Below, in pieces: positions 1,968-31,589 of a DNA stretch of 64,000 nucleotides. The notes under the pieces were generated by a model that saw only the letters and a list, made by a program, of their open reading frames with translations, searched no databases and was not told the origin of the DNA. Positions within the stretch are counted from its first letter, which is position 1. The number at the start of each line of letters is the position of its first letter. This stretch comes from a virus: the IMG/VR virus record IMGVR_UViG_3300050033_000890, positions 1-64,000 of that record, one strand, 5' to 3'. The position numbers and the translations under genes were made by a program.

Positions 1968-2672
1968 ATGAGCGAATACCACAAGATTGAAACCCTCTAC
2001 GAACGTGACGAGCACTTCAAAATCGGACCGGATTTGGTCCTGAGAAATCGCGTCTACGACACCCTCAAAACCTGGCGCTGGACTGAGAAGATTGACGGCA
2101 CGAACATCCGCGTGATCTGGCAGGGCAGCAAGCTGAGCTTCGGCGGCAAGACTGACAATGCCTCGATCCCGGCCGACCTGGTGAAGTGGCTCTACGAGAA
2201 CGTCACCCCTGAGAAACTGGCAGCCTGTTTCCCCGACGGCGGCGACGTCGTCATTTACGGCGAAGGGTACGGCGCCGGCATCCAGCGTGGCGGCCTCTAC
2301 GGGCCGACCAAGAAGCTCATCGTCTTCGACGTGTTCGTGATCGACACCGACATCGAACACACGCGCATGGGTGGCTGGTGGCTGAACGACGAGAACATGC
2401 GCGACGTGGCCGGCAAGCTCGGCCTGGATGCAGTTCCCTATCTGGGTGAGATGACCCTCGAAGACGCCACGGACAAAGTCCGCGCCGGCTTCCGCTCATC
2501 TTTCAACGGCGGTCTGGCTCAGGCCGAGGGAATGGTCGGCCGTCCGATCGAGACCCTCTTCGACAAGAAGGGCCACCGGCTCATCGTCAAGCTCAAGACG
2601 AAGGACTTCGCCAGAACACCGGCCAAGGTTCTCACCATGCCTGCTCTGATCGAACTTCCACTCGCTGCCTAA
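1968..2672 (+). CDS. RNA ligase (nucleotidyltransferase, PF09414-like)
   Basis: This 234-aa protein is a stand-alone RNA ligase domain that would seal nicked RNA through a lysyl-AMP intermediate. Motif I is WTEKIDGTN with the nucleophile Lys41. Motif III is VVIYGEGYG, motif IIIa is LIVFDVFV, motif IV is AEGMVGRP and motif V is [10 protein letters not shown]. No kinase/phosphatase partner is seen nearby. An in-frame TTG at 1947 would add seven residues, but ATG 1968 is preferred; neither start has a clear ribosome binding site. It shares a plus-strand island with the lysozyme. Family role by analogy: repair of tRNA cut by host anticodon nucleases. Confidence 0.85.
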
Positions 2673-2687
2673 CCGGACTGGAGCATT

Positions 2688-3242
2688 ATGAACCTTGCTC
2701 TCATCAAGAAGTGGATCACGCGCTGGGAATCAACCCGCTTCGCCGCCTACGACGACAAGACCGGCAAGCCCATCACTCCAACAACGGTCCTGGTGGGCAA
2801 AGCTCACATCGGCGTTGGCTTCGATCTGGAAGCGCCTGGCGCCCAGGCTATTGTTACCGGCCTCCATCTTGACTACGCGGGGATCAAGGCCGGCAGAGTC
2901 ATCATCACCGCCGACCAAGTGGACGAACTGCTCGACACCACGGTCACCCTGGCTATCACGGGAGCCAAGGACCTGGTTCCCAATTTCGATGCCCTGCCTG
3001 CCGACAAGCAGCTCGTGCTTGTCGATCTGGTCTTCAACATGGGCGAGCATGGCTTGTCCAAGTTCGTGAACACCCTGGAGGCTGTGAAGACCGAGCATTG
3101 GACCGTCGCCGCGGCCGCTCTTCAGGACTCGTCCTGGTTCCACGAGGTCGGTTCCCTTCCCACCCAACGGGGCGGTGCCGATGTAGCCGTTCTCGCTGGC
3201 ACTGCAACGGCGGCTAGCATCTTGGCTAATAGAGGAAAGTAA
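2688..3242 (+). CDS. GH24 lysozyme (endolysin)
   Basis: This 184-aa protein resembles phage T4-type lysozymes, which hydrolyse the MurNAc-GlcNAc bond of peptidoglycan. The catalytic Glu14 is in TRWESTRFAAYDD, with Asp22/23 spaced as in T4 lysozyme, followed by KAHIGVGFDL. LVDLVFNMG and LPTQRGGADVAVL match the family's conserved C-terminal blocks. No signal peptide is seen, so a holin would be needed for release. GGAG lies five bases before the ATG and 15 bases after the ligase stop, so the two genes are probably co-transcribed. A bidirectional terminator follows. A second cell-wall enzyme (M15 peptidase) is encoded at 58 kb. Confidence 0.88.
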   Translation: MNLALIKKWITRWESTRFAAYDDKTGKPITPTTVLVGKAHIGVGFDLEAPGAQAIVTGLHLDYAGIKAGRVIITADQVDELLDTTVTLAITGAKDLVPNFDALPADKQLVLVDLVFNMGEHGLSKFVNTLEAVKTEHWTVAAAALQDSSWFHEVGSLPTQRGGADVAVLAGTATAASILANRGK

Positions 3243-3270
3243 TTGACATCTATGATGAGTCGATACAGAC

Positions 3271-3302
3271 AAAGATGCCTGGGCGTTGGCCCAGGCATCT
3301 TT
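3271..3302. terminator. bidirectional intrinsic terminator
   Basis: A perfect 14-bp stem (AAAGATGCCTGGGC / GCCCAGGCATCTTT) with a GTTG loop lies between convergent genes: the plus-strand lysozyme ends at 3242 and a minus-strand ORF ends at 3304. A-rich and T-rich ends let it work in both directions. It separates the plus-strand island from the long minus-strand structural operon. Confidence 0.9.
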
Positions 3303-3303
3303 G

Positions 3304-3555
3304 TTATGCACGCAGTCTGTGTTCGCAGGTCACGGACCTTTCACATATCCCGCAGCTGGCATGCCCTCGCGGACAGCGCGCCACCGATAAAGGGTTGGTG
3401 AAACAAAGCCGAGGTCCTGCGTGGGAACTATTCGACGTGCTCTCAATTGTCGCGCCAAGAACTTGCCGCAGGCCATCGCGCTTCTCATAAAGCGCCAGTA
3501 GCTGCGCTTCAACTTCCTGAAGTTCAGTCTTCAGGTGAGCCACGATACGAACCAA
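3304..3555 (-). CDS. small hypothetical protein with coiled-coil N-terminus
   Basis: An 83-aa ORF begins with a TTG codon. Residues 5-35 form a probable coiled coil (LKTELQEVEAQLLALYEKRD). The C-terminal part contains six cysteines, including CPRGHASCGICE, which could bind metal. Its stop abuts the bidirectional terminator, as expected for the last gene of the minus-strand operon. I do not recognise the family. A possible alternative start is the GTG 12 bases further in. The 132 bases upstream (3556-3687) hold only a short weak hairpin and no gene. Confidence 0.5.
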   Translation of the reverse strand: MVRIVAHLKTELQEVEAQLLALYEKRDGLRQVLGATIESTSNSSHAGPRLCFTNPLSVARCPRGHASCGICERSVTCEHRLRA

Positions 3556-3687
3556 AGTAACCTCAGAGTGTTACGGATTTTAATCCAAACTACTCTAACA
3601 GGTGGAAATCAGGTCAAACCATAAGGGGAACACCCTATAAGCTGTTTCATAACCTGGTTTTGAAAGGACACGGTTTCAGCCGTACAA

Positions 3688-3951
3688 CTAAGAGGTCACT
3701 GACAGGCCGAGAAGCTGCCGGACGGATGTCGTGAATGTCGCAATGCCGCTCTTGAGCGAAGCGAGCTGGCTCTCCAGGTTGGTCACGACCTGACGGATCT
3801 TGGTGTCGACGCCATTGGCCCGAGCTGTCAGGACCGGCACCTGTCCCTGTGTACCTGCGGGCAGTCCAATCCCATCGAGGGTAGTCACCCTCGCCGTCAG
3901 TGCATCCATCATGGAACTCAGTTGGGCTGTGGAGTACGGTGTCGTTGACAT
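3688..3951 (-). CDS. small hypothetical phage protein
   Basis: This 87-aa protein starts at an ATG with AGGAG seven bases upstream. It is Ser/Thr/Gln-rich with a long predicted helical segment at about residues 45-80 (VDTKIRQVVTNLESQLASLK), which suggests oligomerisation through a coiled coil. It lies 14 bases downstream of the glycine-rich membrane protein gene and is probably co-transcribed with it. No family recognised. Confidence 0.7.
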   Translation of the reverse strand: MSTTPYSTAQLSSMMDALTARVTTLDGIGLPAGTQGQVPVLTARANGVDTKIRQVVTNLESQLASLKSGIATFTTSVRQLLGLSVTS

Positions 3952-20835: not shown

Positions 20836-23800
20836 TTAGCCGGGAGGCAGTGATGTAGGGCCGGATGACGAACCTGCATTGGACTGGCCGAGCCTGTACT
20901 GGGCCAGGTAACCCTGAATGGCGTCGCTGAGAACGAGCCACGGATTCTCAATGATCAGAGGCGGATCGGCCATCTGCAGCAGGACCGTGTTCGAAGACAG
21001 ATTCGAGTCGACGACTTGAAGATTGATCTGGACGCGCTGAAGGAACGTCAGGAAGTAAGCGCCCGTTGTGGTGGAAGACGGGATCGGCTGGGCATAAACC
21101 AGAGCCACAACCTCGCCGGTGAACAAAGACGAGGTGTAGTTGTTCCCGTTCACATCCAACGCCTCGATCGGTACGATCGGGCCTTGCGCGGTCCTGGGCG
21201 GATAAATCAGATCGCCGACGGAAATGGCTGCCGTGATGCCTGTGACCCCTGTCAGGGCCGTCGCGGTCTTGCTGGTGTAGGCAACGATCATGTTGTCGAC
21301 AACGGCTGTTCCGGATGCCGGAAAGTTGCCTGTCTGATTCAGAGAAATACTCGATGCGCCGATGGCGGCAGCCAGTGTAACTTGTGCGGTGTTGGGACCG
21401 ATCCATGCCACGAGTTGGCCATTGGTCTTGTAGTTCGCTTCACCGGGTGTTCCCGATGTTGTCCATGGAACCTGGCCCTGAATGGTGTTGGCGCCGATCA
21501 TCCCGTAGATTGGGCTGTTGTCCAGCACGGAGTAGAGAGTGACGAGCCAGTTGGCGCCATCCCACACCTGTGGGATCGGCAGAGCTTCTGGAAGGACAAC
21601 CGTGTCGCTGGCCTGGAAGGTTTCTTTGATGCCCGCCAGGCCACTGCCGGCGGCCGTCGTCGGAACGTAGACACCCCAATCGGCCTTGGGCGTGTAGATC
21701 ATGTTCACAACGCCGTCCGCGCCGGTGGTGACTGTGACTTCTTCCGCGGTCGGATCTTGGTAATTGATCAGACCCGACCAGGTGTCCGTGTCCACCACAA
21801 CCTTCATGGTCACGTTGGGAACGACCTCTCCATTGAGAGGGCCATGAGCCGTTGCACTCAGGAGGGAATAGTCTCCGTTGAAATAGACCGGACCGTAGGC
21901 AACCAGATCGATGATCGACTCAAGAGTCGCAGGAATCGCAATCAGCGGCTTGTCGCAGGCCAGAGAGATTGAGACGGGAGCGAGCTGCCTGTGTTGGAGG
22001 TAGACAAACCCGCTGGTGATGCCGGAGAAAGCCGGATTCAAGTCAACCGGAAGCTGCCGCGTGTTCGTGGTCGTGTTGGCTGCCGAAGGAATCACAGGGG
22101 TGTTGATGCCCGGAACATTGCCGGCGGTGATGGTCAGCGGGATGCACAAAGACGCTGTCGGATCGTTGTCGCCCGAACCCTTGTAATACTCCAAGCCGTT
22201 TCCATATCCAATCCCCGGAATACCCACGAGGATGTAGGCAGACTCCGCGCAGAATGCCGCAGATGCGTAAACCGGGCCTCCTCCGCAGTTCCGAATGGCA
22301 GCAAGCAAATCAGGAACCAGCCGATTGGACTGAGGATCACCATAAGACACAATGATGACGATCTTGCTCGAGTCCAGACTGTTCAGGAAGTTGGCCATCA
22401 CTTCGGCTTCAGCGGCCTGGCTTCCCATGATCTCGAACGTCGTGAAGGACTCGTTCACCATCGTTGCTCGGTCGACGACCAGGACGTTGTAGGAAGCCCC
22501 AAGGTTGTAAGCGAGAGCACCATCAACCCAGATGCCGGCCGAATATGTCTGACTCGGGTTCAAGCTGGCCAGGGCTTGGACAAGCCCCTGACCCGCCGTC
22601 GAGAGCCTGTAGGTGTGCGACGTGGCATAGGTCTGAGCCGCCAGCTCGTACTGGAGGGCAATCGCGGGATTGCACACCGCATAGACGGGCTGTCCTTGTG
22701 TGTAGAGGCCGCCCGGTGTCGAGGTGACGGAGACCGTGCCATCGTCGGAATCGAAGTCGAAGCTGTTGAGCGCCGCAGTCCCCAGGTCTCCGCCCAGCGC
22801 GATGTACATATTCTGAATGGAATAGATCGGGTACACCGGCAGGTTGAACGTGTCGTTTCCTGTCCCGCCGAGAACTCCGAGGAACAGAGTCTGCTGAGCC
22901 AGAGGCTGATTGATCGTGATCGTCTTTGTCGCCTGGCTCAACTGGAACTGCGGGCTGCCGTCGTTCACAAAGGCGGATGCCTGGTAGCGATAGCTGGTGG
23001 CGACTGAATAGAAGCCGTCGGAATCCTGCTGCCAGGTTCCCACGAAGATCGGCTTGTTGGGATTAGGCTGGTTTGCCAGAACGTGTGTGAGCACCGTACC
23101 GGGATGAAACTCCAAACCCGGTGTGCCCGGCAGGAAGTAACGCACGGGCCCGGCAAAGTACGAACCGTCCTGTATCTCGAGGAAGACGGAGTTGGCGTCG
23201 TTGCCCGTGCCTTCCACAAACTCCAGCGGCTGGAGATCGTTGTTGTCGCCAATTCCGCTGGTGAACTTGTCGATCCCGATCGCGTCTACATCTGCATCCC
23301 ATTCGATGGGCACAAGCGCCGCGGCGTTGATTTCGTCCTCGTCGCGCCAACGGTACTGGCCAATTACAAAGCCGGGAGTTGTGGCAGATACCTGACGGTT
23401 GGATGGCAACAGACGAGCTGCCAGAGGAACCATCTGGTCACGGCGGATCATATAGCCGGCAGCCATCGGAACAACACCAAGGGCTGTCGTTGGAATGGCT
23501 GAGGTGTTCCCCGACTGGTACGCGAAGAACGAACTCGTCGACACTCCCCAGTTGGTGAACTCCTGCTGCACACCCGGCGGAACTGTCACGCTGATGTCGA
23601 TGCGCATCATGTTCTCGGCACCGGCGGGGATCGATTGAGCCGCGGAGATGTACGCGCCACCCGCAACTCCGAAGGCCGTCGTTCGGCACGAAGCTGAAGG
23701 GTTTGTGGGAACCCCAAACGCCACCAGCAGGTTGTTAGGCACATCGGAACCGGAGCCGAAGAACACCACATTGCCGCGCGAGCGCCACACGATGTTGGGT

Positions 23801-24141
23801 CGGATCAGGTACTCGTCGCCGATGGTTTGGGTGATACCTGTAACCCCGGTGAGGCTGTTGTTGGTTGTTCCGGTATAGCTGATGACCATCTGGGAAGCAG
23901 CGGTCGATCCGTTTGCCGGGACGTAGACAACCGCGGAACCCGATGCCGGAAACTGGAAAGTCTGATCCAGAGATACCACGGCCGCGCCGATGGCAGCAGG
24001 TGCAGTGACTGTCGCCGTGTAAGGGTCGCCGAGATAGAGGGTGCCTGGCTTGACACCGCCGGCGAGGGGCAACAGGAACCGCTTTGGCGTGGCCGCCACA
24101 GCCGGATCTTGAAGTGCTGCGTCTTGGTAGAAACCGATCAT
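20836..24141 (-). CDS. giant virion protein with ILEI/PANDER-like domain
   Basis: This 1101-aa protein is beta-rich. Residues about 530-665 resemble the ILEI/FAM3 (PANDER) fold: GIWVDGALAYNLG, SYNVLVVDRATM, FTTFEIMGS, KIVIIVSYGDPQSNRLVPDL, ILVGIPGIGYGNGLEYYKGS. In animals this fold occurs in FAM3 cytokine-like proteins and as a sugar-binding stem in POMGNT1. Two copies of a 60-residue module (AAIGA..SL.QT..FPASG.AVV...M..YT....LTGVTGIT) lie near residues 48-113 and 922-984. A role in host-surface glycan binding is inference. Its ATG overlaps the upstream stop (TAATG). Confidence 0.75.
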   Translation of the reverse strand: MIGFYQDAALQDPAVAATPKRFLLPLAGGVKPGTLYLGDPYTATVTAPAAIGAAVVSLDQTFQFPASGSAVVYVPANGSTAASQMVISYTGTTNNSLTGVTGITQTIGDEYLIRPNIVWRSRGNVVFFGSGSDVPNNLLVAFGVPTNPSASCRTTAFGVAGGAYISAAQSIPAGAENMMRIDISVTVPPGVQQEFTNWGVSTSSFFAYQSGNTSAIPTTALGVVPMAAGYMIRRDQMVPLAARLLPSNRQVSATTPGFVIGQYRWRDEDEINAAALVPIEWDADVDAIGIDKFTSGIGDNNDLQPLEFVEGTGNDANSVFLEIQDGSYFAGPVRYFLPGTPGLEFHPGTVLTHVLANQPNPNKPIFVGTWQQDSDGFYSVATSYRYQASAFVNDGSPQFQLSQATKTITINQPLAQQTLFLGVLGGTGNDTFNLPVYPIYSIQNMYIALGGDLGTAALNSFDFDSDDGTVSVTSTPGGLYTQGQPVYAVCNPAIALQYELAAQTYATSHTYRLSTAGQGLVQALASLNPSQTYSAGIWVDGALAYNLGASYNVLVVDRATMVNESFTTFEIMGSQAAEAEVMANFLNSLDSSKIVIIVSYGDPQSNRLVPDLLAAIRNCGGGPVYASAAFCAESAYILVGIPGIGYGNGLEYYKGSGDNDPTASLCIPLTITAGNVPGINTPVIPSAANTTTNTRQLPVDLNPAFSGITSGFVYLQHRQLAPVSISLACDKPLIAIPATLESIIDLVAYGPVYFNGDYSLLSATAHGPLNGEVVPNVTMKVVVDTDTWSGLINYQDPTAEEVTVTTGADGVVNMIYTPKADWGVYVPTTAAGSGLAGIKETFQASDTVVLPEALPIPQVWDGANWLVTLYSVLDNSPIYGMIGANTIQGQVPWTTSGTPGEANYKTNGQLVAWIGPNTAQVTLAAAIGASSISLNQTGNFPASGTAVVDNMIVAYTSKTATALTGVTGITAAISVGDLIYPPRTAQGPIVPIEALDVNGNNYTSSLFTGEVVALVYAQPIPSSTTTGAYFLTFLQRVQINLQVVDSNLSSNTVLLQMADPPLIIENPWLVLSDAIQGYLAQYRLGQSNAGSSSGPTSLPPG

Positions 24142-24929
24142 TATTGTGCCCAGTAGGAGGGGTCCGCATTCATCACGGCCTGCACGACTTCGCGGAGTTG
24201 GTAAGCAAGCACGTTGTCAGAGCTAACGCCCACAGTAGCCAGAGAAGGTTCGACCAGGCCAAACAGGCCCAGCTCGCTGCACACGATGTTGTAGGGCATG
24301 GCGGTGTACTGGTAAGCCACGGACAAACCGGCCGGCAAGGTGCTTGAGAAGATCAGCTCTCCGGTTTGAGGATTGAACACATAACTACCTGGCGCCACAC
24401 TGAATGTGAGAGAGGACTCGATCACATTGGCGTGCGCCAGCATCTGATCGGTCATGGTGATGGCTTCACTGGGAATCGTGAACTGGTTGCTCTGCTTGGC
24501 GATCTGAAGCGCCGGCCCATCCGGGCCGAGCAGGGTTGCCGTCACACCTGTGATGGCATTCAGATCGTTCACGACATCGCTGATCTTTCTCCAGACCCAG
24601 TAATCATCGGGAGCCATCGTCACCGTAGGGATGGTGTAAGCGACACCATTCAGAACGACCGTGACCAACCCGATGCACACCGTAATGGTCATGCTGAGAG
24701 ACGTGGAGCTGACAGAGATCCCTGCCCACTGCGTCAAACTGAGCTGCAAACAGACCTGATCCTGCTCGCCTTCATAAGTGCTGTCCTGGCGGCATGTCGT
24801 GGCCAGATAGCAGCGTTCAAGGAAAGCAACGGAGTCCTCGCCCTGCATACGAGTGAGGCCGACATTCAGGCCCGCGACGTCCGCATAGGTCAAGCTATTT
24901 ACGCGCTGAATCTGCGTGGAAGTGTTCAT
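24141..24929 (-). CDS. virion structural protein
   Basis: This 262-aa protein starts at ATG 24929 (MNTSTQIQRVNSLTYADVAG). It is mixed alpha/beta with strands around VVLNGVAYTIPTVTMAPDDY and TFSVAPGSYVFNPQTGELIF. No family recognised. It is coupled by TAATG to the 1101-aa gene downstream and lies three bases after the Ig-like protein gene upstream. Position between baseplate J and the fibres suggests baseplate or fibre attachment. Confidence 0.7.
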   Translation of the reverse strand: MNTSTQIQRVNSLTYADVAGLNVGLTRMQGEDSVAFLERCYLATTCRQDSTYEGEQDQVCLQLSLTQWAGISVSSTSLSMTITVCIGLVTVVLNGVAYTIPTVTMAPDDYWVWRKISDVVNDLNAITGVTATLLGPDGPALQIAKQSNQFTIPSEAITMTDQMLAHANVIESSLTFSVAPGSYVFNPQTGELIFSSTLPAGLSVAYQYTAMPYNIVCSELGLFGLVEPSLATVGVSSDNVLAYQLREVVQAVMNADPSYWAQ

Positions 24930-24932
24930 CGG

Positions 24933-26813
24933 TTACTCAAAGGAAACGCTGTCGTAGGTGTCGGTCAGATAGATGGCCAGACTGTTCGGATCAAGAATGT
25001 ATCCGTCGTATCTCGGCTTGACTGCGACTGCATTGCTGCCAGTCCACAACCAGAGCCTTCCCATCACGTCATAAGCAATGCCTTGAATCGCGGGCACGAT
25101 GTTGGAAAGGTCGTAGGTGTTGATGACTGGAGTTGCAAGGTTCGGATAGGGAACTTCATCGGCAGTAGCTGTCTGGCCGTTTCCCATGCACTCCAGCATC
25201 AGGACATAAGTCCCGATCATGGTCAGAGCCAGAGAAACTGGTGCTGGGGTGGAAAGTGTCCCGGATTGCCATCCGGCGCTTCCCGAATACGCAACGAGCG
25301 TTCCATCCGGAAGCAGAACTTGAAAGTTGCCGTCAGGAGTCATGACGAGGTAGCGCCAGTTAGAAGCCGTTGATGCGGAGCCGTAAGGCACCGGCAGCAG
25401 GATCGCGTACCGAGTCGCTCCTGGCTTGGAGATGTCGTACTTGACGTTGAGTCCATACAGAGGTTCGGTCGTCATCGCCGGCGCAGAGAGCTGGCCGGGA
25501 AGCGGTTCGCGCCTATCCCAGTAAATGAGGCTCGTTCCTGCCGCTCCCAGAATGCCCCATGTGTTCGGTTCCACAGCGATCGCGCCCAGAGGCGTGGTCA
25601 TGGCGTAGGACTGGATGTATTCGAGGGTGCTGAAGTTGTCCATCATGTACAGCTCTTTGAGCAGGTTCTCGACTGTCGAGATGAGCCAGTACCTGTCGAA
25701 CAACGTGTCCCGGAAGATGGGATGGGTGTACGGCCGCGTGCTGTCTGGGACTGCCGGAAGGTTGAACGGCATCTGCCAGCAGCGCAACCTGACGCCGGCG
25801 GGAAGCCCGCGGACGATGATGCTGGAGATGTTCTGCCAGGTTTTGATACCGGTGAAGACGCCCTCGTTCGACGAGGTAATCGTCTCGCTGGCGCCTTCCT
25901 GTTGGTCGGCCCAGACGGGCAAGGGATATTCCTCGCCCTGCACAAAGATGCTGAGCGACATTTGGCTGCCTTGGACACCTTCGACCCAGAAGGTCAGGAT
26001 GTTCGGAATGGGCAAGGAAAACGGACCCAGACTCTGGGGATTCCAGATGCTCACCGTAGAGTCGCCGCTGCCGGTCACGTCGAAGAGGACCGGATCGGTC
26101 ATGGGAACCTGCGCCTGCGAAGAATCTGCGATGTAACCGGTGGGAACCGGCAACCTATCGTCGTACGGTTGAATGGCGATGTTCTGCGAGGTCGAACCGG
26201 AGGTGATGGTTCCCATCACCTGGTTCAAGAGGGTCTGCCCTGGCGCCAAGGGAAAGTCACTCGGCAGCTTCACCATGTAGTAGACACCGCGGTTGTCGAT
26301 TCCTGTCGGACACGTTGCCAGAGTGCGCGAAGCGATCTCCCGTGCAATGCGCTGCTGGCTGTCGTCAAGAGCGATGGCTGCCGTATTCAAGAGTTGCGCA
26401 TCGATCGAGTAGGGCTCTTCGCGGACGCGTTGGTCAGTGATGTCGAAGTAGTTCAGCAGAACCTGAGTCCGATGGGATCGGTAAGAAGGCAGCACAGGTG
26501 TGGCCGCCGCAGTTGTACCCACCACGATCGAGATCGCCATCGTGCCTGTGATCCCGTTGAGTGTGGCAGATACCGTCGTGGTGAACTGCGGCCGCGCGCC
26601 GTTGGTCTGAGGATTGGGCGCTCGGACTGCGATGACCGTGCCGCCGCTGGTGACCGACAGGCATGCAGTGTTCGTTGACCAGGTGCAAAGCGCCGTCACA
26701 TTGAGCGTCGACCCATCGCTATAAGTAGCGGTGGCCGTCAACTGCTCCTGACTTGAAATCGACAGGGCCGTCCGTGGACCGGAGACTGCGATCGAGACAA
26801 GTGTGGCCGGCAT
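24933..26813 (-). CDS. tail/baseplate protein with BIG2 Ig-like domain
   Basis: This 626-aa protein has an N-terminal bacterial Ig-like (BIG2) domain at residues 3-97: LVSIAVSGPRT, QEQLTATATYSDGSTLNVTA, LCTWSTNTACLSVTSGGTVI. The remaining region carries a discoidin/tail-protein-I-like block (QVLLNYFDITDQRVREEPYS). Its position right after baseplate J fits the tail protein I or gp7-like slot, with later repeats acting as a periphery platform. The native ribosome binding site lies 12 bases after the 3' copy left in the HNH gene. No enzyme motif seen. Confidence 0.72.
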   Translation of the reverse strand: MPATLVSIAVSGPRTALSISSQEQLTATATYSDGSTLNVTALCTWSTNTACLSVTSGGTVIAVRAPNPQTNGARPQFTTTVSATLNGITGTMAISIVVGTTAAATPVLPSYRSHRTQVLLNYFDITDQRVREEPYSIDAQLLNTAAIALDDSQQRIAREIASRTLATCPTGIDNRGVYYMVKLPSDFPLAPGQTLLNQVMGTITSGSTSQNIAIQPYDDRLPVPTGYIADSSQAQVPMTDPVLFDVTGSGDSTVSIWNPQSLGPFSLPIPNILTFWVEGVQGSQMSLSIFVQGEEYPLPVWADQQEGASETITSSNEGVFTGIKTWQNISSIIVRGLPAGVRLRCWQMPFNLPAVPDSTRPYTHPIFRDTLFDRYWLISTVENLLKELYMMDNFSTLEYIQSYAMTTPLGAIAVEPNTWGILGAAGTSLIYWDRREPLPGQLSAPAMTTEPLYGLNVKYDISKPGATRYAILLPVPYGSASTASNWRYLVMTPDGNFQVLLPDGTLVAYSGSAGWQSGTLSTPAPVSLALTMIGTYVLMLECMGNGQTATADEVPYPNLATPVINTYDLSNIVPAIQGIAYDVMGRLWLWTGSNAVAVKPRYDGYILDPNSLAIYLTDTYDSVSFE

Positions 26814-26824
26814 AGAGTTCCTGA

Positions 26825-27637
26825 TTACGACGCGGAAGTCAGAACGATCGGATTCGAGATGGAAGTTTCAACCACGATGCGTTCGCCTGTCTGAGGCTTA
26901 TGAAGCCTCTTCTGGGCAATGCGCGCAATTCGATTCAGAAATTGATCTTTAGTAAGAGTCCATTTCATGTGGTTACAAATCGCACAACAAGGAACACAGT
27001 TCACAAAGTGGTATCCAAGATCGTTGTCAAGCCTATCAATGCCGTTATACAGAAAGACGCCATACGTTCTGGCGAGATTCGCACCTTGGGCCGGAGGTTC
27101 ACCGCAATAGTGACAGTCTCCCGACACTAGGCTCTTGAATTCCTCACGAGTCAACGAAAACTCAAAACTGCGTTTAACGGACTGACGTTGGTAGTCCCCG
27201 TAGAGTTTGTTGAATGCTGATTCGGAATACTGTTTCTTGTAATGCCCGCAATATCTACACGCGGTACTGGCGCCATGAATCAGGTTTGACTGATAGACTG
27301 TGTTGTCTCTTCCACAGTCGCACCGGCACAACCAGTGCAACCCCTTCTTTGTTGTAGCTTTACTGACAACGATAAGTTTTCCAAAGCGTTGCCCAATCTC
27401 GACTTCTTGATGAGGATACTTGCAACCACAGCAAGTAGTATGCTTTCCAGTGAGCCAGTTCGTCGGCACGAGTCGATACCGTCCGCAGTCGCACTCACAA
27501 TTCCAGAGCACACTGCCACTGGAATTGAGACCCACCCAGTTCTTGACAACCAAATCTCCGAATCGCTGTCCGGTCAGATCCTTGGAGCGGAAACTAAGTG
27601 TATCGATAGTCCGATCGAGTTCGCAAAGTCTGGACAT
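26825..27637 (-). CDS. HNH homing endonuclease fused to a structural-gene 3' end
   Basis: This 270-aa protein probably starts at ATG 27637 (GAGG six bases upstream). Residues about 20-130 hold two zinc-binding repeats of the type GQRFGKLIVV, W.C.CDCG, T.CCGC. The C-terminal domain is HNH: GDCHYCGEPP, NGIDRLDNDLGYHFVNCVPC, CAICNHMK. It looks AT-richer than its neighbours. Its last 23 residues (QTGERIVVETSISNPIVLTS) nearly repeat the C-terminus of the upstream J-like protein, so the gene appears to have entered the 3' end of the J gene and fused to the displaced native end. A TATACT box lies at 27650-27655. Confidence 0.88.
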   Translation of the reverse strand: MSRLCELDRTIDTLSFRSKDLTGQRFGDLVVKNWVGLNSSGSVLWNCECDCGRYRLVPTNWLTGKHTTCCGCKYPHQEVEIGQRFGKLIVVSKATTKKGLHWLCRCDCGRDNTVYQSNLIHGASTACRYCGHYKKQYSESAFNKLYGDYQRQSVKRSFEFSLTREEFKSLVSGDCHYCGEPPAQGANLARTYGVFLYNGIDRLDNDLGYHFVNCVPCCAICNHMKWTLTKDQFLNRIARIAQKRLHKPQTGERIVVETSISNPIVLTSAS

Positions 27638-27656
27638 GCTCATCCTCAGAGTATAC

Positions 27657-28856
27657 CTAACCAACAGTAAGTACGATAGGGTTGTTGATTGATGTTTCCA
27701 CTACCAACCTCTCACCTGTCTGAGGGGTATAATTCGAAACTAAATACCGACTGTACCTCGTGCCATCATCACGGCTTCGCCAAATGAATATCTCGTTGAT
27801 GGGCTGGTCCGGTGACCCAATGTCCAGGATGTTCGGGTCGGCGTTCTGAATCTGATCCGCCAGCTGATTGATGACAAACTCCTGGCCCATGGCCAGGTTG
27901 TTGATGTAGCTCTGCGCAGCGGACATTGCGTTGGCGATCGCATTCTGCTGATCGGACGAGTTCGCACTGCTGACAAATGTAAGTGTCGTCGAGAAGGAGA
28001 TGCCTACCAAAGCTGGCGAAGTCGCAGTACCCGAGAGCGGATAAGAAGTGAGGTTGTCGAGCGTGCCCTGAACCAGATTGATGAGCGACGGCGGAACTAC
28101 CGGCGAGATGCCGTAGACGTAGCAGAGGAAGGTGCCAGCCTGTCGTACAAAATCAAGATCCTGGATTCCAGGGAGTACAAGAACCGCGAGACGAAGGTCC
28201 GATTCGGCGGCGCCGCCTTTGGATTGGATCCAGAGGTTGATGCGATAGCGATAGTCGTCGTCGGATTCTGCATCGCGGCCCCCAATCAATCCATAGTTGT
28301 TGGTCACCAGGAGTGAGCCGTATGCGGAATCGGCATAGTTGGTGAAGTTGCTGTTCGTGAACACGCCGGCCGCGGCGTTGCCGGCGGAAGCCGCCTGGAG
28401 GTTCGTTACTGCAAACGGGGCACTCGACTGGGAAGCTTTGCAGGTCACCGGGTTGGCGGTCAAAACTACCTGCCCACTGAGGCCCTGTGCCGTGTAGATC
28501 TGAGTGCCGGCAGGAATCGTGATGTCCTGGCCGTTGTTGATCGTTCCGAAAGTCCCGCGCGCAACGTAGAACTCGAAGTTGTTGTCCAGAGCCGAGCTGC
28601 TCACATCGGATGCCTGCAACCTGGGGATGCCGAACATCTGGCCAATGAAATCCAGATTCGATCCGGTGGCATAGGGCAGCAACGTCTGCGCGATCGATGT
28701 GAAGCTGTTGGCTTCCGACTGGCCAATCTGGTCGCCCACGGCATCGGTGAAGGCGCGCGCCTTGGCGCCCGGAGACGTGTTGGTGATGCCGGTCAACTGG
28801 AGAGACGCCAGAATGTTGGCCTGGTAGGTTGATGCGGTACTGGGTGTCTGGATCAT
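27657..28856 (-). CDS. baseplate J-like protein
   Basis: This 399-aa protein matches baseplate assembly protein J / T4 gp6-like wedge proteins. Diagnostic blocks are ATGSNLDFIGQMFGIPRLQA near residues 65-85, IPAGTQIYTA near 112, GGRDAESDDDYRYRINLWI near 190-210, and LAVLVLPGIQDLDFV with GTFLCYVYG near 222-250. It forms part of the wedge ring around the hub. The last 23 codons are recoded relative to the diverged copy at the end of the HNH gene, as expected for a replaced 3' end. Confidence 0.88.
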   Translation of the reverse strand: MIQTPSTASTYQANILASLQLTGITNTSPGAKARAFTDAVGDQIGQSEANSFTSIAQTLLPYATGSNLDFIGQMFGIPRLQASDVSSSALDNNFEFYVARGTFGTINNGQDITIPAGTQIYTAQGLSGQVVLTANPVTCKASQSSAPFAVTNLQAASAGNAAAGVFTNSNFTNYADSAYGSLLVTNNYGLIGGRDAESDDDYRYRINLWIQSKGGAAESDLRLAVLVLPGIQDLDFVRQAGTFLCYVYGISPVVPPSLINLVQGTLDNLTSYPLSGTATSPALVGISFSTTLTFVSSANSSDQQNAIANAMSAAQSYINNLAMGQEFVINQLADQIQNADPNILDIGSPDQPINEIFIWRSRDDGTRYSRYLVSNYTPQTGERLVVETSINNPIVLTVG

Positions 28857-30320: not shown

Positions 30321-31460
30321 TTAAAAAGACAGGCCATTGATGAACTCTTCCAGAGGCTCAAAGCGTACGGAGAGAGGGCCATAACTCCGAGTAAATGTAC
30401 GTTTCACGTCCTCGGCCAGAACGACATTCTCACCCGTCGGGTGTTGCCGGCGGAACGCCCCAAGATTCACCGGATCAAACTTGTCAGCTGACCATTTGCA
30501 TTCGATGGCGATCGGATGTTTGCGGCGTCCCGCCAACACAAAATCAATCTCATGTCCGCGCTTATCTCTCCAGTAACCGACATCGCGACTCTGCAAATGC
30601 GCCATCATTTCATTGAGCACAAAGTGTTCCCACAATATCCCCAGGTCTTCATGTCGCAGATCCTGCCAGCCGCGGTAGTAGCAGATAAAACCTGTATCGA
30701 AGCCGTAGACCTTTGGCGCGGAAATGATTTCCGTCGGCTTGCGCAAACTGAAAGGGCGAACGATATGGGCGACGAAGGTGGCTTCCAAGACACGCAAATA
30801 GTTTGCAATGGTCGGACGGCTTACTTCACACGGACCGGTGAACCGCGTCGCCTCGAAGATGCCGCCGCTCTGTGCAAGGATGAGTTCGGTAAACTTCTGA
30901 AAGGAATCGCGCCGTTCCAGCCGGAAAAGTTCCTGAATATCTTTGGCCCAATAGGCATCGATCCATTCCTGAAAATCCCTCTCCTCAATATCTTTCGCCA
31001 GAAAGAATGGAGGCAATCCGCCGCGCAAAAGCCTGTGCTTCAGATTCAATTGTTTTGCGTCGGAGAGGTCGCGCAGGCACATCGGAGTGAGCCAGAGATC
31101 GCGCTTGCGTCCTGCAAGGGTGTCTTTGAATTTGCTCGACGCACTCAGCGTAGAAGAACCGGTAGCGATGATTCGAACGGTAGGGTAGTGGTCCGCAGCG
31201 ATCTTCAGCAGTTCGGAGGGATTCTCCAGACGATGTATTTCGTCAAGGACAATGCGCTTTCCACGTAAAGTGTCCAGGAATCCTTCCGGATCTTCCATCA
31301 TCCGGCGAACGCGCGGCAACTCACAATCGAAATACTCAATTTCTGGAAGACTTTGGCAAAGGTAAGTCTTGCCAACGCGCCGGACTCCAGCGAGCCAGAC
31401 GACCGACCGCTTTCCCCAAGCCTCCTCAATGCGGTTTATCCAATAGTGCCGTTCTACCAT
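30321..31460 (-). CDS. AAA ATPase with DUF4143 C-terminus
   Basis: This 379-aa protein is a typical bacterial AAA_14/DUF4143 ATPase, not a virion component. The Walker A motif is GVRRVGKTY, Walker B is RIVLDEIHRL and sensor 1 is IIATGSSTLS. The C-terminal half holds a winged-helix region (SRPTIANYLRVLEATFVAHI) and a PD-(D/E)XK-like core (KRGHEIDFVLAGRRKHPIAI, then ECKWS). Start ATG 31460 is preferred; GTG 31478 is possible; neither has a good ribosome binding site. It interrupts the tail operon between hub and baseplate genes, so it is an acquired cargo (moron) gene. Function unknown. Confidence 0.85.
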   Translation of the reverse strand: MVERHYWINRIEEAWGKRSVVWLAGVRRVGKTYLCQSLPEIEYFDCELPRVRRMMEDPEGFLDTLRGKRIVLDEIHRLENPSELLKIAADHYPTVRIIATGSSTLSASSKFKDTLAGRKRDLWLTPMCLRDLSDAKQLNLKHRLLRGGLPPFFLAKDIEERDFQEWIDAYWAKDIQELFRLERRDSFQKFTELILAQSGGIFEATRFTGPCEVSRPTIANYLRVLEATFVAHIVRPFSLRKPTEIISAPKVYGFDTGFICYYRGWQDLRHEDLGILWEHFVLNEMMAHLQSRDVGYWRDKRGHEIDFVLAGRRKHPIAIECKWSADKFDPVNLGAFRRQHPTGENVVLAEDVKRTFTRSYGPLSVRFEPLEEFINGLSF

Positions 31461-31589
31461 AAGAAGACATGATTGCACATCGTGTCACTAAATGCAACCG
31501 TACCTTCGTTTAGTATTATCCGTCCAACAGCACTTCCGGCCACCCGGTGACCCAAAACTCATTCTCAAGGCAGCCTCAGAAACGGGCGC

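Follow-up and report, generated by a model that had tools for sequence, protein, structure and literature searches.

A probable intron-less homing element with a replacement 3' end and an HNH endonuclease gene in a phage baseplate J gene, and similar layouts in other phages

The window analyzed here, a stretch of 64,000 nucleotides, belongs to an 81,818-b virus record of IMG/VR and contains a baseplate J-like gene directly followed by an HNH endonuclease open reading frame (ORF). The features of the locus are as follows:

24933..26813 (-): next gene, 626 aa, weak match to a tail protein; native neighbor of the displaced J end, as seen in L003-L006
26825..26890 (-): native J end, displaced together with its own stop codon and now forming the HNH C-terminus; identical to L003 from 26890 to the stop
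26825..27664 (-): HNH endonuclease ORF (phrog_374, phrog_1035), fused in frame with the displaced J end
26886..26896 (-): 11-b direct repeat CCTCAGACAGG at the junction of HNH gene and displaced end, right end of the element; last L003 mismatch at 26891
26900..27217 (-): HNH catalytic domain, PacI-like, residues 150-255 (Foldseek, family alignment)
27245..27397 (-): zinc-binding module 2, residues 90-140
27419..27580 (-): zinc-binding module 1, residues 29-82, CxC..CGC pattern, in a confident region of the structure model
27657..27789 (-): foreign (donor) J end including the stop codon, as judged from the L003 comparison and GC content
27657..28856 (-): baseplate J-like gene, 399 aa (PF04865 Baseplate_J, E 7e-19; phrog_6 baseplate wedge, E 2e-27)
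27666..27725 (-): duplicated segment, donor copy ending J; agrees with native relatives in 39/60 b
27715..27725 (-): 11-b direct repeat CCTCAGACAGG, copy inside J

Amid the tail genes, an ORF resembling AAA-type ATPases by eye is located at window 30321-31478; as the alignments with L004-L006 are interrupted near 30325, this ORF may be a further insertion.

The 20-residue end of J is present twice at this locus, as PQTGERLVVETSINNPIVLT at 27666-27725 (-) in J itself and as PQTGERIVVETSISNPIVLT at 26837-26896 (-) at the C-terminus of the HNH protein, with J terminating in PQTGERLVVETSINNPIVLTVG and the HNH ORF in PQTGERIVVETSISNPIVLTSAS. The sequence-only reading had described the HNH C-terminus as a repeat of the J end, and this was confirmed: the two copies are identical in 18 of 20 residues, and their protein match scores 93 as compared to a maximum of 61 in 1000 shuffles. 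Its description of the DNA as identical at the start and synonymously diverged thereafter was likewise accurate, since CCTCAGACAGG is exact in both copies and 11 of the 13 differing codons are synonymous, with an overall DNA identity of 43/60 b. The 11-b repeat has no other occurrence in the window (0.07 expected). Moreover, the GC content of the foreign J tract (44%) and of the HNH gene (48%) is lower than that of the remainder of J (58%).

Four IMG/VR phages (L003-L006) carry J genes 97-98% identical to that of the window without an HNH gene at the J end. In these phages J ends in PATGERIVVETSISNPIVLTSAS and is followed by the same spacer and the same next gene as in the window. Their J-end DNA agrees with the HNH-fused copy in 54-56 of 60 b as compared to 39 of 60 b for the copy now ending J. 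Thus, all four HNH-less relatives end like the 26.8-kb copy, as had been predicted, and uninserted J genes ending like the 27.7-kb copy, which had been named as the refuting outcome, were absent among them. The proposal that the copy beside the downstream gene is native holds for its match to L003-L006, but not for its first 8 b (CCTCAGAC), which are foreign: the relatives have CCGGCAAC (PATG, not PQTG), and the L003 J end differs from the HNH-fused copy in these 8 b only. Similarly, the copy ending J was rightly taken to be foreign; however, the foreign part exceeds the 60 b of the duplication, its start lying at 27789 or slightly before it.

The comparison with L003 also delimits the exchanged DNA. 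Only 1 mismatch was found over 33000-27790 (5.2 kb), followed by 28 mismatches within 27789-27702 and then the insert; on the far side, the block closes with a mismatch at 26891, after which only 2 more (26817 and 26148) occur in ~740 b. Both flanks of the insert continue as the same genome in this alignment, and because both are near-isogenic with L003, the direction of the event is clear: a foreign J end and the HNH gene came in and the native end was displaced, which is in accordance with the earlier suggestion that the mobile gene had brought a replacement J end. From the mismatch pattern on both sides, the foreign DNA is a single block, 27789-26891, consisting of a J end of ~130 b and the HNH gene. 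This block took the place of ~100 b of native DNA and pushed the native J end onto the HNH gene, and J is now a chimera with a 5' part from the recipient and a foreign 3' end. The foreign J tract extends ~65 b upstream beyond the duplicated part, which indicates that it came in by homologous exchange with the J locus of another phage and not by blind insertion. Two hallmarks of homing elements were observed, namely presence/absence polymorphism at one site between the window and the near-identical L003-L006, and co-conversion of target DNA beside the insertion (J 27657-27789). A donor of the J end was found neither in the scan of the IMG/VR J alignment, including a degenerate DNA pattern, nor among J genes of GTDB and of phage records; an HNH scan in IMG/VR and in phage records gave no close relative of the window's HNH, and no second copy of the insert was detected.

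Some further observations concern the surroundings of the J end. Past 26148, ~740 b beyond the element, the identity to L003 drops from near 100% to ~96-97% (22000-26148), and this is a second, separate recombination boundary beside the homing gene. The uninserted L003 possesses two more HNH genes of the same family (L179, L226) elsewhere on its 178-kb contig. In the distant relative L007, a GIY-YIG gene (L007:2427-2963) lies between J and the next gene and overlaps the J stop; it was rejected as an instance of the same layout because no displaced end is present, and homing genes of more than one type may share the J end as a hot spot.

The window HNH protein matched the HNH endonuclease phrog_374 (E 4e-26) and endonuclease VII phrog_1035 (E 2e-13). 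Translation more likely starts at ATG 27637 or 27643 than at TTG 27664, as judged by eye; ATG 27637 or 27643 is preceded by a GAGG, and the TTG reading overlaps the J stop. In the structure model (mean pLDDT 85), the two zinc-binding modules and the HNH domain are of high confidence and the J-derived tail is of low confidence; since relatives stop about where this tail starts, it is regarded as an appendage. The first zinc-binding module is likely used for DNA recognition. PacI is a restriction enzyme and a stand-alone protein without two zinc modules in front. It represents the closest solved fold (Foldseek top match PDB 3ldy, probability 1.00, E 1.8e-3, followed by the HNH nickase 4h9d) and shares with the window enzyme the active-site pattern GxDRxD..GY..N. 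All residues defined as invariant from a family alignment of 28 sequences are retained in the window enzyme (C184, Y186, C187, G208, D210, R211, Y218, N222, C227, C230, N231, and K234). With the conserved HNH and zinc residues and the fold of a PacI-like His-Me finger protein of the phrog_374/phrog_1035 group present, the enzyme looks intact and PacI-like.

Approximately 160 related HNH loci were screened for a repeat of the 3' end of the upstream gene directly after the HNH gene, which yielded four more IMG/VR cases (L012, L193, L192, and L229). In L012, an N6 methyltransferase ends in DYYNKGIERLKNHISQQKINFDI and is followed by the HNH gene and then by the displaced EYYDKAIQRIQNHVSQQKLF; the displaced end is identical in 59/63 b to the uninserted L083/L084, and 72 of 76 relatives are closer to it than to the present end of the methyltransferase. 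The target in L193 is a T4-type portal gene (PF07230, E 5e-32); its displaced end, like that in the window, forms an in-frame fusion with the HNH protein. Its five closest uninserted relatives (L244-L248, 79-85% amino acid identity) end like the displaced copy, and the insert was also found on a second contig, L243. In L192, the displaced end of an exonuclease gene (phrog_298) overlaps the HNH stop. In L229, an RNA ligase gene (PF09414) is accompanied by two HNH genes in the opposite direction; this tandem pair antisense to the ligase gene occupies 2477-3710, with the end duplicated across the pair and the displaced end overlapping the start of the next gene. The direction of displacement was determined via uninserted relatives for the window J, the L012 methyltransferase, the L193 portal, and the cultured phage phi93 described below. 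In a control of 1100 ORF tails in HNH loci, the remaining repeats were weak or between paralogues. Most screened HNH loci lack a duplicated end, so most are ordinary free-standing genes or have lost the trace. The frequency of end duplication, ~3-4% of the loci screened, is a lower bound, as the screen sees only recent events with a displaced end that is still readable. Other candidates were rejected: L045 and L069 are whole-gene methyltransferase paralogues, and the repeats in L238, L196, and L228 are HNH paralogues. L202 and L264, in which the repeats are unconnected to the gene end beside the HNH gene, were not counted, and L017, L015, and L182 were excluded from the count of cases.

The same architecture was found in cultured Lactococcus phages. 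In phi93 (KM091443.1), a methyltransferase gene (781-1629) is followed by an HNH gene (1684-2247), the product of which shows 40.5% identity to the L012 enzyme, and immediately after it by an unannotated displaced methyltransferase end. Alignment with Phi155, which lacks the HNH gene, revealed that the two differ at 3 positions within 700-1472, that the end is foreign from 1473 on, and that, past the HNH gene, 599 b beginning at 2252 are 100% identical. Thus, presence/absence at one site is seen here as well, with a co-conversion tract at phi93 1473-1629. PhiM1127 carries the same insert as phi93. In Phi40, the foreign methyltransferase end is kept and the HNH gene is absent; in phi145, the foreign end is joined to the terminal residues of the native one (LPLL-ERISENE); and Phi109 has a frame-broken junction inside AATACTGAACGAAATT, which is common to both copies. 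Judged by their sequences, these three look like products of HNH loss or excision. FB14, in which a diverged methyltransferase carrying the foreign end immediately precedes the large terminase gene, is a donor-like allele. Taken together, the Skunavirus relatives of phi93 form an allelic series of empty, filled, HNH-lost, and scarred states. Published data show that this methyltransferase shields the DNA of Phi93 and Phi145 against HphI (PMC4190342), which indicates that the chimeric methyltransferase of phi93 is functional. Cloned Phi93_03 was reported to be without effect on sk1 in a 2025 study (PMC12724721); sk1 possesses no methyltransferase gene between its terminase genes, so the target was missing from the published test, and the null result can be explained by its absence from the test phage.

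Based on these findings, the window very probably carries a homing element that is neither an intron nor an intein and that combines an HNH endonuclease gene with a preceding stretch replacing the 3' end of the target. We propose that, upon co-infection, the enzyme of the donor would cut or nick J site-specifically close to its end (native CCCCGGCAACAGGCGAACGC), in the vicinity of native GGCAACAGGCG. Repair would use the donor locus as template, whereby the HNH gene would be copied in together with ~130 b of the donor's J end; in such a homing step, the right-hand crossover would occur at the cut, so that the J end of the recipient remains downstream and becomes the HNH C-terminus, while J would stay whole as a chimera. 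The site would be lost twice, since J then carries diverged sequence and the insert cuts off the native remainder, and the recoded J end is predicted to resist the enzyme. The sharp right junction fits a crossover at the cut, and one-sided co-conversion is known for I-TevI (PMC2988022). Furthermore, the element is bounded on either side by a copy of the 11-b repeat, and recombination between the two copies might restore a whole J.

It is unlikely that a free-standing HNH gene was instead spread by general homologous recombination, with the J-end duplication as a by-product of unequal crossing-over and no cut by the enzyme. HEGs are often located at recombination boundaries between phages (PMC10448857), the right flank of the window shifts from near identity to ~3.5% divergence from L003 past 26148, and cleavage by the window HNH is a prediction; however, the same precise layout with HNH genes of one family recurs in five further loci (L012, L192, L229, L193, and phi93), the old end always lies directly past the HNH coding end, and the other repeats in the control over ORF tails were weak or among paralogues. 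Alternatively, the J end could have been duplicated locally in tandem in a single lineage, after which one copy diverged and the HNH gene inserted between the two; this would agree with the 18/20 identical residues and the 11 b in common. Nevertheless, this scenario is already contradicted by the present data and is given very little probability: the copies differ in 17/60 b while the flanks differ by ~0.02-0.3% from L003, which makes divergence in place impossible, and the divergence runs on into unduplicated J at 27726-27789.

HNH genes are commonly carried by self-splicing introns or inteins. Such a carrier is extremely improbable here, as the stop codon of J itself precedes the HNH gene, a search for mobile group I/II introns around the HNH gene gave no Rfam match and thus no sign of an intron, and no intein family was matched. 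A metagenome assembly chimera of two phages has to be considered since the window is an IMG/VR contig for which a second copy of the insert was not found; yet both flanks belong to the same genome by comparison with L003, the L193-type insert is present in two separate contigs, and phi93 and PhiM1127 are cultured phages that were sequenced separately and show the same arrangement. An artifact of this kind is therefore very improbable as well.

The homing element proposed here resembles the WHO elements of Torulaspora and Lachancea yeasts (Coughlan et al., 2020; PMC7282813), in which an endonuclease gene is accompanied by a replacement 3' end, the target combines a 5' part of the recipient with a 3' part of the donor, and the recipient's former 3' end persists as a fragment behind the endonuclease gene. 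In the scheme proposed for WHO elements, FBA1 receives a new 3' end at every homing event, and the previous one is shifted downstream (PMC7282813). The window shows this layout of replacement 3' end, endonuclease gene, and displaced recipient 3' end, whereas the protein differs: WHO elements encode an intein-related zinc-finger protein of the HO family and target nuclear FBA1, whereas here a PacI-like HNH enzyme is found at baseplate J and, in other phages, at several target genes. The J element thus works like a WHO element but is none. In fungal mitochondria, mobile ORFs are known in Allomyces atp6 and in Glomus atp6, atp9, cox2, and nad3 (Beaudet et al., 2013; PMC3630166). These too comprise a foreign C-terminal end, an endonuclease ORF, and a displaced native C-terminal end, the copies diverge mostly synonymously, and the native copy resembles uninserted relatives. 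By contrast, they encode LAGLIDADG or GIY-YIG enzymes in organellar DNA, whereas the window carries an HNH gene in a record of a dsDNA phage, and the displaced end is sometimes in frame with the enzyme here, unlike in the fungal ORFs. An HNH enzyme in a phage places the J element outside both groups, while a likeness in working remains. SegF, SegG, and MobE, free-standing enzymes of T4-type phages, share with the J element a phage-borne, intron-less organization, a recoded target, and flanking co-conversion (PMC2988022). They sit between genes, and displaced gene ends are absent from that review; in the window, the displaced J end at 26825-26890 is at variance with a location between intact genes. 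No earlier phage description of the displaced-gene-end layout was found in the open-access literature. Phi93_03, described in a survey of Skunavirus HNH proteins, is PacI-like, of the same family and of the same architecture; the displaced methyltransferase end is without mention there, and PacI-like HNH proteins were found to be rare in lactococcal Skunavirus phages (2/268; PMC12724721).

From the sequences compared, the end-replacing layout appears to occur in several unrelated phages, cultured dairy phages included. If true, a homing strategy of fungal mitochondria and of the yeast nucleus has also arisen in bacteriophages with a different enzyme family, and it recurs over baseplate, portal, methyltransferase, nuclease, and ligase genes. 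This would explain how a homing gene can reside inside a gene without splicing and would provide a concrete engine for the 3'-end mosaicism of phage genes. We consider it fairly likely that recurrent end-replacing HNH homing elements represent, besides introns and inteins, a third way into essential coding sequence of tailed phages, that their repeated gain and loss swaps the 3' ends of structural and DNA-modification genes, and that the chimeras outlast the HNH gene, as in Phi40 and phi145. The lactococcal series makes this directly testable, as its members are dairy phages in culture for which a host and an expression system are established.

Two loci of the screen deserve mention on their own. 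In L182, an HNH gene is located within a tandem run of small zinc-finger genes (L182:1829-3195), which could be a cluster formed by repeated homing or simple paralogues. In L109, a methyltransferase gene breaks off at YAKENDK and is joined to the gene that in L012 lies downstream of the element (L109:2501-3079); this fusion may be a scar left by repair at an HNH target.
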